Origin: Petrimonas mucosa
GTDB lineage: Bacteria; Bacteroidota; Bacteroidia; Bacteroidales; Dysgonomonadaceae
Assembly (NCBI RefSeq): GCF_900095795.1
Contig: NZ_LT608328.1
Location: forward strand, 3,093,001-3,157,000
Direction: 5' to 3'
DNA length: 64,000 nucleotides
A program made the translations under genes and the position numbers. Shown here piece after piece: positions 51,260 to 58,234 of this stretch (position 1 is its first letter; the number at the start of each line of letters is the position of its first letter). A model generated the notes under the pieces. The model saw nothing but the letters and a program-made list of their open reading frames with translations, was not told the origin of the DNA and made no database searches.

Positions 51260-51733
51260 TCAGGGTTGCTTTTTCCATATTTTGTCCGCCTGCTCCAGGT
51301 ATAGCGGCAGGGCAGCCGAGCCATACCATTGATAGAGATCGGCGGCCAACAGTTTCTCCCTTACTGCCGGATCACTCTCCAACAATTTTTCTGCCTCCTC
51401 CGTTGTATCCACACTGAGAATGAAGATCCCGCGGTAGTGCTGCTCATTCTTCGCCAACGGACCGGCCACCACCAGTTTACCTTCTTTCACCAGACGATTG
51501 ATATTCTCCATGTGCCCCCTGAAACACTCCGACACCAAAGCGGCGTCGGCAGTAGTGTTGGGTCCTGTCTTCAGAATTACCAGCACAAAACTCTTCATCC
51601 CATAATCATCAGCTCCCAGCTTTTTTGCCAGGGCTGCATCGTACGCAGGGTTAACGGTTGTTGTCTCTGCCTTTGCCTTCTTCCCCCTCTCCTGTAAAAC
51701 GGAGTGGAAAGAGGCGAAAGCAGGATATGTCAA
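51260..51733 (-). CDS. YciI-like protein; signal peptide split off by a frameshift
   Basis: 157 residues as an open frame from TTG 51733. The YciI-like (ferredoxin-like alpha/beta) domain is at about 45-150 (FVLVILKTGPNT, HMENINRLVKEGKLVVAGPL, FILSVDTTEEAEKLLESDP). The TTG start falls in the middle of a signal peptide: the frame upstream from ATG 51773 gives MKSILSFF, and removing one base from the A6 run (51750-51755, plus strand) joins it to LALTYPAFA. The intact gene would be 51260-51773 and exported. Either the gene is broken, switches phase, or the run was misread. YciI relatives include muconolactone isomerase-like enzymes and their function here is open. Confidence 0.7.
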   Translation of the reverse strand: MTYPAFASFHSVLQERGKKAKAETTTVNPAYDAALAKKLGADDYGMKSFVLVILKTGPNTTADAALVSECFRGHMENINRLVKEGKLVVAGPLAKNEQHYRGIFILSVDTTEEAEKLLESDPAVREKLLAADLYQWYGSAALPLYLEQADKIWKKQP

Positions 51734-55625: not shown

Positions 55626-55847
55626 AAATAATTCTCCTTTCATAGCTTCACAAAAATCGAATAATAAACTTTTAAAATGGTTATGTATAATAAAAAATGC
55701 CGGTCGGCCCCAACGAAACGAGATCCGGGTAAAGTCTGTTTTTTTCATTCCGGTGGAGGCCGGCACAGTATGGGGGATAAGGTTTTCCCAAACACAAAAT
55801 TAAGGAAAATGATCTCTCCTAATCAAACATTTGACAAAATTTAACAG

Positions 55848-55878
55848 CTGTAGCTCTTGCTGGCAGCAAGAGCTACAG
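55848..55878 (-). terminator. Hairpin after the subtilase/inhibitor gene pair
   Basis: Perfect 14-bp stem CTGTAGCTCTTGCT / AGCAAGAGCTACAG with a 3-base loop. On the minus strand it is followed by CTGTTAAATTTTG, a weak T-tract. It lies 26 bases past the stop of the small I9-like gene. Confidence 0.65.
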
Positions 55879-55904
55879 CCGGTCGACGGATTCAGATCCG
55901 TTAC

Positions 55905-56135
55905 TTATTGAATATCCTCCCCTGGGGGTGGAATTTCAGCCTCCTTTTCATCTCTCAGTGAAGCAATCTCCTTGCGATGACGGATTTTATCGATGGTTGT
56001 CTCTTCGGCATATCCGATAATCACTCCAAACTCGTAGAGCCGGGTTATCGTCACCCCTTCCTCCCGGAGGTTCTCCGCCACAACGTCTAACCGGTCGAGA
56101 TAGTAAGCAGATACGGTAATAACAATTTGTTTCAT
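55905..56135 (-). CDS. Small I9-inhibitor-like protein co-encoded with a subtilase
   Basis: 76 residues from ATG 56135. The predicted order is beta-alpha-beta-beta-alpha-beta: MKQIVITVSAYYLDRLDVV, GVTITRLYEFGVIIGYA, TIDKIRHRKEIASLRDE, then a Pro-rich tail PPPGEDIQ. This matches the layout of the I9 propeptide/inhibitor fold of subtilases (as in POIA1). From memory, short proteins with this kind of tail are found next to S8 peptidases and are often misannotated as ketohydroxyglutarate aldolase. The start overlaps the subtilase stop (ATGA), so the two are made together. It probably inhibits, folds or recruits the protease; the longer open frame to 56456 is inside the protease gene and is not used. 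Confidence 0.82.
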   Translation of the reverse strand: MKQIVITVSAYYLDRLDVVAENLREEGVTITRLYEFGVIIGYAEETTIDKIRHRKEIASLRDEKEAEIPPPGEDIQ

Positions 56136-57388
56136 GGCGCTAAAGGGAGTCCTGCACCTACATCCTGTGCAGGTGACGTTAAACTGCCTGCCGTCCGGAT
56201 CAACTCCTGTCCGATCATCGCGGGCGTGGCATCGGGAAACTTTTCGCACAGCAGGGCAGTTATTCCTGCCACATGCGGTGTAGCCATGCTGGTACCGGAA
56301 AGGGTACGGTACCTCGCAGGCATGGGCCAGGATGAGTAGATCGCCACGCCTGGTGCGGCCAGATCCACCAGTCCCTCCTGATTGATTGCACGGTTTGAGA
56401 AATCGGCCACCTGCAGCGCTGAGTCTACCGCACCCACCGCGAGGATGGAAGGACAATCGGCGGGGCTGCTCACCGGGCTGAACCGATTTTCGGATCGCCT
56501 GCTGTCATTTCCTGCTGCAGCCACGACGAGCGTTCCTTTTGAAAGTGCGAACCGGGCAGCCCTTTCGTAGGCAATGTCGTAACTTTGTCCCGGGAGGACT
56601 TTCGATCCCAGTGACATCGACAATACGCGACACCCGTTGTTCGCTGCCCAGGTCATCCCGTCCAGAATCCAGGCCTGCGCCCCTCTTCCCCCGTTGTTCA
56701 ACACTTTTCCTGCGTAAATCTGAACCCCCGGAGCCACACCGTACCGCACCCCCTGCTGATCGGACGAACCACAGGCAATCCCGATACAATGCGTTCCATG
56801 CCCGTGGAGATCTTCCGCAGTTTCATCGGGAACAAACGAGAAGGTCGTCAGGTTTCTTCCTTTAAAATCGGGGTGTCTTACATCGAAACCGGTATCCAGC
56901 ACAGCCAGCTTGACGCCTTCACCGGTATAGACCGACTCGTGTGCCCTTACAGCCTTAATGCCCCAGGAGGATTCTACCACTGTATCGACAGTAACATCGT
57001 CCGGGATATAAACTACTTTCTCCGGTTCCACAGTATAATCGGCATCTACAGGGTGCAACAGCTCCATACTGTCGTCATCCACCGCCACAAGAGCTATCCC
57101 CAGTTCATTGTAGAAGAGTACATCTGCATCCTTTATCCTGCTTTCACACATGGTTTCCGTAATAAAATCGGCCGTATTGGCAACCGTCAAGCCCCATTTT
57201 GTCTCGAGCAGCCGGGTAGTTTTCACCACCTCCCTCTTCCCATTCCGGAGAATGAGCAGATGTCGTCCGGTATAAAAGGGGGTGACCTCCAGATCACTTG
57301 CCGCAGCCTCACGATACATCTCACTCGAACTACTATCAGATGCAGGGTGATCCCAAAAGACCCTTTTTCCTAGAAATGGAGGTTTCAT
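56132..57388 (-). CDS. Subtilisin-like S8 serine peptidase, apparently cytoplasmic
   Basis: 418 residues from ATG 57388 (a GTG start at 57427 is possible). The catalytic triad is intact: Asp165 in LAVLDTGFD, His197 in HGHGTHC, Ser367 in SGTSMATPHVAG, with the oxyanion Asn294 in AAAGND. Residues about 38-130 look like an I9-type propeptide domain. There is no signal peptide or membrane helix, so the enzyme should stay in the cytoplasm unless exported another way. It overlaps the gene for a small inhibitor-like protein and follows by 69 bases a membrane protein gene on the same strand. Confidence 0.92.
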   Translation of the reverse strand: MKPPFLGKRVFWDHPASDSSSSEMYREAAASDLEVTPFYTGRHLLILRNGKREVVKTTRLLETKWGLTVANTADFITETMCESRIKDADVLFYNELGIALVAVDDDSMELLHPVDADYTVEPEKVVYIPDDVTVDTVVESSWGIKAVRAHESVYTGEGVKLAVLDTGFDVRHPDFKGRNLTTFSFVPDETAEDLHGHGTHCIGIACGSSDQQGVRYGVAPGVQIYAGKVLNNGGRGAQAWILDGMTWAANNGCRVLSMSLGSKVLPGQSYDIAYERAARFALSKGTLVVAAAGNDSRRSENRFSPVSSPADCPSILAVGAVDSALQVADFSNRAINQEGLVDLAAPGVAIYSSWPMPARYRTLSGTSMATPHVAGITALLCEKFPDATPAMIGQELIRTAGSLTSPAQDVGAGLPLAP

Positions 57389-57457
57389 TGTCAGTTCATT
57401 TATATACCGTTTTTCAACTCCCTGCACATTCCGTTCAGGGATCTCTCAATAGATTGC

Positions 57458-58234
57458 TCAATCTTCCTGCAGCAACCTCAACACCTCCTCGTCGATAATC
57501 CGCCAGGATCTCTTCCCGGGTGAGCTCTCTACAACTCCCTTCGCAAGCAGTACGTTCAAAGCGGCACTATCATCGTGGCTAAGTCGGCCAAGAGTACCCT
57601 CCTCCCTGATCCGCTGCAACATTGCTTTCTCCTGACCGGTGAGAGATTCGAACCTGGAAGAGAGGCCAGATCCGCCGGAAGCTGAAAACAAAATTTGTCC
57701 CCCTTTCCTCCAGATGGCAGTCTCCGCCCTGAGAATACTGTTCTCTTCCATAATTGAAAAGAGGGTGGGCAAGAAAATCCGGGTATAGTAATAGCCCGAT
57801 AGAAATCCGGCAATAAAGAAATAGACGAGAAGTGAAACGATCACCGGACCGGCAAGATGGCAATCCTGGCCGGCACAGCTACTGTTGGCGGTGACGTAGT
57901 CTGCGATGCCCTGCAGGTAATCGGGAATCTTGGCAAGCTGAGTCAGCGTAATTCCGATAATGATCTTGGTCAACCAATCCGATACATCTTCGAGGTTTGT
58001 GTTGGGCAAATACTTGGTGGTCCGTCCATAATCTTCCCTCGGGTCGTAGTTGCGGTTCAACCGTGGAACCCCGAACAGAAAACCCAACAGGGCCCCACTA
58101 AGCATGGAGGCCAGTGAGATGATCAGAAGCAATCCGAAAAAACTCCAGTAATGGTGGGAAATGGCAGCACCTATGGCAGTAGCTCCTATTCCGGCAACCA
58201 CGATGGCAAGGGGCCACAGATGTTTTACATTCAT
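57458..58234 (-). CDS. Membrane protein with C-terminal winged-helix-like domain
   Basis: 258 residues. About four membrane helices: 7-25, 31-52 (FFGLLLIISLASMLSGALL), 88-106 (IIIGITLTQLAKIPDYL) and 127-150 (VIVSLLVYFFIAGFLSGYYY). Between helices 2 and 3 is the distinct stretch GFLFGVPRLNRNYDP and KYLPNTNLEDVSDWLTKIII, which I know from other bacterial proteins of no assigned function. The cytoplasmic C-terminus (about 185-258) has a helix-turn-helix-like pattern ending VVESSPGKRSWRIIDEEVLRLL. First gene of the protease cassette. Confidence 0.78.
   Translation of the reverse strand: MNVKHLWPLAIVVAGIGATAIGAAISHHYWSFFGLLLIISLASMLSGALLGFLFGVPRLNRNYDPREDYGRTTKYLPNTNLEDVSDWLTKIIIGITLTQLAKIPDYLQGIADYVTANSSCAGQDCHLAGPVIVSLLVYFFIAGFLSGYYYTRIFLPTLFSIMEENSILRAETAIWRKGGQILFSASGGSGLSSRFESLTGQEKAMLQRIREEGTLGRLSHDDSAALNVLLAKGVVESSPGKRSWRIIDEEVLRLLQED

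Follow-up and report, generated by a model that had tools for sequence, protein, structure and literature searches.

We have analysed a 64,000-nucleotide stretch of the Petrimonas mucosa genome (the window) and describe here an operon in which a cytoplasmic subtilase is probably restrained by a dedicated I9-type inhibitor from a separate, neighbouring gene and, in Dysgonomonadaceae, is coupled to a membrane protein. Subtilases, I9 prodomains and stand-alone I9 inhibitors are already known; what is new is the occurrence of a subtilase and a downstream I9-like gene as a cross-phylum pair, together with a rule for how the small protein ends. If this is true, bacteria of several phyla use a dedicated inhibitor, acting in trans, to restrain a potent cytosolic subtilase, and there would be a testable function for genes annotated as 'S8 family serine peptidase' and 'hypothetical protein'.

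The genome carrying the operon is a single contig of 3.7 Mb, with Petrimonas and Proteiniphilum as the recorded names of its closest relatives. The operon occupies 55905-58234 on the minus strand of the window, and by ORF calls its order of transcription is membrane protein (gene 1), subtilase (gene 2) and 76-residue small protein (gene 3). Its features are as follows.

55847..55879, minus strand: terminator-like hairpin with 16-bp arms, directly 3' of gene 3 (RNA fold -36.8 kcal/mol, z -6.58)
55905..56135, minus strand: gene 3, stand-alone I9-like protein, 76 aa (ORF, fold match, profile match)
55908..55931, minus strand: C-terminal tail PPPGEDIQ, gene 3 residues 69-76 (alignment A5; BPN' register)
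56132..57427, minus strand: gene 2, subtilase (S8), 431 aa from the GTG at 57427 (ORF; Pfam PF00082)
56135..56959, minus strand: catalytic domain of gene 2, residues 157-415 (phmmer alignment to subtilisin)
56288-56290, 56798-56800 and 56894-56896, minus strand: catalytic codons S380, H210 and D178 of gene 2 (alignment to subtilisin)
56957..57280, minus strand: N-terminal domain of gene 2, residues 50-157 (TGRxLLI...EPEKVVY), about 108 aa (model, hhalign)
57458..58234, minus strand: gene 1, membrane protein, 258 aa (ORF)
57461..57676, minus strand: winged-helix (ArsR-like fold) tail, gene 1 residues 187-258 (fold search)
57965..58003, minus strand: NTNLEDVSDWLTK motif, gene 1 residues 78-90 (alignments A4, A10)

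A first-pass annotation of this DNA had reported three genes on one strand, all of which are present as ORFs on the minus strand, and a protease stop overlapping the start of the small gene, which is the ATGA at 56132-56135. The hairpin that closes the operon and the N-terminal domain of the subtilase had been overlooked. No TAnnTTTG promoter was found in the 466 bases scanned 5' of gene 1. With family names read off the sequence, the upstream flank holds a pair of SusC/SusD-like genes, and the downstream flank encodes a membrane-anchored repeat protein and an ABC transporter. A small protein encoded near the operon (51260-51733) resembles one encoded near a distant relative of the membrane gene (L053:6646-7104), both carrying DDYGMK..VxxLKTGxNT; the likeness probably reflects a common family and coincidence.

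The small protein of the window has no match in Pfam (E 10), NCBIfam or PADLOC, and the I9 identity that had been proposed for it gains support from its predicted fold, the profile of its family and the length of its tail. Compared with the gene of L022, gene 3 has 7, 7 and 49 changes at codon positions 1, 2 and 3, a distribution by which it is under protein-level selection. AlphaFold2 modelling was done on a natural fusion of protease and small protein (L010), for which the mean pLDDT is 52 and the model is good in the small domain only; there, the chain is predicted to follow a b-a-b-b-a-b order with pLDDT about 90-93. The best PDB match of this domain is pro-subtilisin E (3whi, Z 9.6, 1.5 A over 62 aa), and the top matches are subtilisin prosegments (Z 8-9.6; 1spb_P, Z 8.2), with the fungal inhibitor POIA1 (1v5i_B, 1itp) lower in the list. 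As the same list includes NapD (Z 8.5) and EF-G (about 7.5), the ferredoxin-like fold is widespread and the I9-like fold alone is no proof of identity. Among 20 small proteins from several phyla, Inhibitor_I9 is the commonest Pfam family, matched by four with a best E of 0.035; since none lies above the Pfam cut-off, gene 3, with its predicted prosegment fold, is filed as I9-like and not as a formal I9 member. A profile built from these 20 proteins finds a protease prodomain in the PDB (8c4x_B, E 0.0029) behind two designed helical proteins at better E, and Tk-subtilisin propeptides at E 0.3-1.2; a profile of the Dysgonomonadaceae proteins alone gave chance-level matches only against PDB sequences. 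When 393 Bacteroidales genomes were searched with the small-protein profile, matches were limited to the own genome and three weak ones.

How the small protein ends is informative. The last residue of a subtilisin prosegment occupies P1 after cleavage, and subtilisins cut poorly before proline. In an alignment of the small proteins with what we take to be the sequence of the BPN' prosegment, the latter has six residues from the Asp71 column to its last residue. Nine distant small proteins without a tail end close to the same point (+6 after the D71 column in seven, +5 in one and +7 in one), and for the paralogues found in the same genus the end lies, by eye, at about +6 or +7. Tailed small proteins have proline at +7, the predicted P1', in six of seven distant members and in 18/18 close relatives, where the predicted P2' is also proline; the two residues are the invariant P70 and P71 of gene 3 (alignment A5). 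One protein, L070, fits neither class. The simplest reading is that the tail is substrate-like, so that it either ends already as a product or would resist cutting, and the rule suggests a trans-acting inhibitor that is a product mimic or is guarded by proline. Put as a stop at P1 or a proline at P1', it predicts precisely what a simple biochemical assay should show. Glu69 and Asp71 have a helix-capping role (PMC6993865).

Gene 2 belongs to a single Pfam family, Peptidase_S8 (PF00082, E 3.6e-59). Its D178, H210 and S380 and its oxyanion residue N307 align with D32, H64, S221 and N155 of subtilisin (phmmer), in agreement with the earlier description of an intact Asp-His-Ser triad and placing the triad in an S8 domain. 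The start kept among relatives is the ATG at 57388, giving 418 aa compared with 431 aa from the GTG. The N-terminus has no hydrophobic leader (no 15-residue segment among its first 60 residues exceeds a Kyte-Doolittle mean of 0.72), so the lack of a signal peptide noted before holds and there is no indication of a secreted protease; on hydropathy alone, gene 2 is cytoplasmic in the same way as the ISPs of Bacillus. The LIP[YF] motif of ISPs is absent from residues 1-157, where a domain of ~108 aa stands in place of a short propeptide. This domain also occurs in subtilases of other phyla, and in the model of the fusion it has the secondary structure b-a-b-b-a-b with pLDDT 55-80. Since an hhalign comparison with the small-protein profile gave E 0.0015 but a probability of 17%, it is only possible that the domain is a second, in-cis I9-like domain. 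Phage S8 proteins retrieved with the protease were partial subtilisin-like matches. The IetAS defence system was considered and rejected, as the operon neighbours of gene 2 are the membrane protein and the I9-like gene, with no IetA AAA ATPase, and the checked flanks match no PADLOC model.

The pairing of protease and small protein extends well beyond Bacteroidales. A tblastn search of plasmids, with both proteins as queries, found adjacent relatives of the two on a Methylobacterium plasmid, and reading of neighbours showed the same pair on plasmids of Rhizobium, Palleronia, Streptomyces, Deinococcus, Vibrio and Hymenobacter; it also occurs in genomes sampled from three phyla, in ordinary chromosomal contexts. 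Altogether, 18 non-exported subtilases (the window's included) from Bacteroidota, Pseudomonadota, Actinomycetota and Deinococcota have an I9-like gene of 67-94 aa directly downstream, and 14 other subtilases from the same searches have none, most of these with an exported-type N-terminus or a long C-terminal extension; as the subtilases were grouped after looking, this contrast describes a pattern and is no test of a pre-set hypothesis, and the ambiguous L074 stands outside it. In the loci seen outside Dysgonomonadaceae, no membrane gene lies beside the pair, so its control role is not general. On the Vibrio alfacsensis plasmid pSEA2 (L069), the pair is flanked by a DndB homologue (PADLOC E 3.4e-30) on one side and by a DNA cytosine methyltransferase on the other.

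Within the family, the three genes stay together. A search with the membrane protein brought up twenty close relatives (Petrimonas, Proteiniphilum and kin), and all three genes occur in the same order in 18/18 loci with complete flanks; the other two contigs stop at the membrane gene. Spacing consists of overlaps or short gaps, often with a translationally coupled small gene. Searching 60 relatives whole, we found the membrane gene in six, and 6/6 also have the other two genes. Conversely, protease matches above 70% identity in 36 relatives all sit with the membrane gene, the remaining matches being paralogues of roughly 40% identity or other subtilases. Pairwise distances are correlated among the three proteins (r 0.83, 0.90 and 0.76, with 0.90 for membrane protein and protease), and 0/2000 permutations reached values as high, as expected for genes inherited together. 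The co-conservation that the first-pass annotation had proposed to check is thus borne out. In about half of the relatives, murF- and rlmI-like genes form part of a shared cluster upstream of the operon, in most of these cases with rimP-nusA-infB-like genes downstream as well (names by sequence reading); in the others, the window included, the operon lies at different sites, and its presence is patchy inside the genus. This distribution implies that the operon was mostly inherited in place, with some relocation.

The membrane protein was modelled by AlphaFold2 (pLDDT 84, pTM 0.68) with main helices at residues 7-25, 27-55, 81-116 and 125-186. The conserved stretch pointed out earlier is NTNLEDVSDWLTK, the most conserved part of the family across phyla, of which L81, E82, S85, D86, W87, L88, T89 and K90 are invariant in 30 sequences. 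The winged-helix-like tail is likewise recovered in the model: residues 187-258 (pLDDT about 90) resemble ArsR-type regulators, with HlyU (3jth_B, Z 9.0, 2.6 A over 72 aa) as the best PDB match, and the structural matches listed for gene 1 span the winged helix and no transmembrane part. The tail is missing from the Proteiniphilum acetatigenes subgroup (alignment A1, in which L015 lacks it). A pair of cysteines, residues 120 and 125 in a loop predicted to be extracytoplasmic, is frequent among relatives that have a winged helix (alignments A1, A10) and missing in the subgroup without one (L031, L035); the association is not strict, since L039 has the tail without the cysteine pair.

The membrane family is rare, being found in 7/345 Bacteroidota genomes (two of them weak), 2/300 Burkholderiales and 1/296 Actinomycetota, each count taking in the centre genome. 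Viral contigs gave one locus, and the phages searched with a pYEATS-tailed relative gave no match. Distant members share a GFLFGIP...NTNLEEVSDWLTK core and carry different tails (alignments A4, A10): that of L048 is pYEATS (PF20305, E 1e-9), that of L054 is a sub-threshold pYEATS match, and the remaining ones are pYEATS-like in a few cases and otherwise HEAT-like or TPR-like, as named by sequence reading. Their direct neighbours include a caspase-domain protein (L040), a patatin (L042) and a peptidoglycan-binding protein (L059), and in L056 a papain-like protease lies two genes away; other distant members have no such neighbour. Gene 1 thus shares a homologous membrane domain with the pYEATS-tailed proteins, some of which are near caspase, patatin or papain-like genes, but ends in a winged helix and has a subtilase and an inhibitor gene as partners. 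To treat the family as a 'membrane partner of hydrolases' would be a lead, hinting at a possible shared membrane coupling of destructive enzymes, and the members with pYEATS, repeat or other tails (L040, L042, L048, L054, L056 and L059) look worth a survey of their own.

How the three proteins may work together can be outlined as follows. The small protein would bind the substrate cleft like a subtilisin propeptide, its tail occupying the non-primed sites; members without a tail would correspond to a ready-cut product, and in tailed members the proline that follows P1 would prevent cutting. In Dysgonomonadaceae, the pair would act together with a membrane protein of four helices and a cytoplasmic winged helix; most likely this protein anchors the protease, or senses and controls its release, or serves as its substrate, this being the weakest step. 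Inhibition by the small protein and control by the membrane protein are both what we infer. The 'switchable proteolysis' that had been proposed is plausible, and it is only the winged-helix tail and the relatives beside other hydrolases that suggest a 'membrane sensor'. A broader version, in which the subtilase locked by a product-mimic or proline-guarded inhibitor is a widespread, undescribed module with lineage-specific triggers, and a membrane event releases proteolysis here through a protein whose family elsewhere lies near caspase, patatin and papain-like enzymes, seems to us rather unlikely.

Several known systems resemble parts of this arrangement. Plasmodium SUB1-ProM is a stand-alone propeptide-like protein with a predicted I9 fold that acts in trans on the subtilase beside it, but it is eukaryotic and secreted to the parasitophorous vacuole, has no membrane partner gene, and no Pro-Pro tail is noted for it (PMC6993865). 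Stand-alone I9 inhibitors are on record from fungi, plants and protists, and the passage of PMC6993865 that lists POIA1, YIB2 and their relatives names no bacterial one; POIA1, which is among our structural matches, and the yeast proteinase B inhibitor YIB2 share the small stand-alone I9 fold of gene 3 and differ in being eukaryotic. The prosegment of subtilisin BPN'/E is alike in fold and in the distance from the D71 column to the C-terminus; it acts in cis and is cleaved off and degraded, whereas here a separate gene encodes a protein with, in many members, a proline-guarded tail. A bacterial stand-alone I9-like inhibitor beside its own cytoplasmic subtilase, present in several phyla and following the tail rule, is absent from the open-access papers searched, and open-access literature on pYEATS, anti-phage I9 and antiphage subtilisin-like proteases holds nothing on this system.

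Inhibition may not be the main task of the small protein. In secreted subtilisins the I9 prosegment has two functions in cis, folding and inhibition, and the small gene directly follows the protease and is often coupled to it in translation, as would suit a trans-acting prodomain that folds the subtilase like an intramolecular chaperone, with inhibition secondary or absent. We consider this quite unlikely: the protease's own conserved N-terminal domain could serve folding, the conserved Pro-Pro past the predicted P1 fits cleavage resistance better, and the known stand-alone I9 proteins are inhibitors (PMC6993865). That the protease serves housekeeping quality control or stationary phase like Bacillus ISP, its inhibitor being encoded separately and the membrane protein being an anchor, is possible though not likely. 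It would agree with the cytoplasmic location, with the chromosomal site conserved in many relatives, and with ISPs of Bacillus and Planococcus, cytoplasmic subtilases regulated by a bound peptide or a separate protein: they act in stationary phase, held off by a short propeptide that inhibits through a proline-containing LIPY/F motif (PMC6220982), and Bacillus has a separate ISP inhibitor, IPI (PMC3901451). However, gene 2 has a long N-terminal domain with no such motif, presence is patchy even within the genus, and the inhibitor fold is I9-like and not the Ig-like fold that PMC3901451 gives for IPI; the LIPY/F motif and the proline-guarded tail are a similar idea in a different structure. We take the most likely function to be that of a cytosolic protease held by its dedicated inhibitor, with the membrane protein as the point of control in this family; a stationary-phase or envelope-stress role would fit too.

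The first-pass annotation had suggested a switchable proteolysis system, perhaps a stress or anti-phage response; co-conservation of the genes, non-export of the protease and the I9 identity are supported, and the anti-phage part is not supported. A module for defence or programmed death, in which the membrane protein senses damage or phage, the inhibitor is freed and the protease cuts cell proteins, could be argued from the distant membrane genes with pYEATS tails or near the caspase, patatin and papain-like genes, from the rare and patchy membrane family, from the Vibrio plasmid pair and from the scores of gene 2 on PADLOC subtilase and IetS profiles. These scores arise because the S8 domain is common, and the other cross-phylum pairs are in ordinary contexts. 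The defence reading is further weakened because the operon has a fixed housekeeping-gene site in about half of the relatives and six window neighbours have no PADLOC match, and we judge it unlikely; a defence-island check of a subset of neighbours found no defence genes or mobile elements. The layout with a small overlapping partner gene also fits a toxin-antitoxin pair. Finally, the membrane gene might be a bystander travelling in the operon, given that the pair occurs without it in other phyla and that one subgroup's membrane protein has no winged helix; its 18/18 co-conservation across several distinct genomic sites and its divergence correlated with that of the protease make this quite improbable.

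In a metagenome-assembled relative, a single frame of 483 codons encodes both protease and small protein, the protease part lacking its last 11 residues (L010:8350-9801; also L020), and this fusion may be functional, degenerate or an assembly error. Near its C-terminus the protease part of L010/L020 is almost identical to that of the window, which suggests recombination between these relatives. The genus also has a paralogous operon (L111, L112, L107, L110; a similar one in L100) in which a subtilase sharing about 43% identity with that of the window, and an I9-like protein of 67-70 aa, are encoded together with a DUF2589-like protein and two unknown proteins, so that its partner genes differ from those of the window operon. 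In the own genome (L113; G000:C1 872001-882000), an inserted element that carries two transposition-type genes interrupts the paralogous protease gene.
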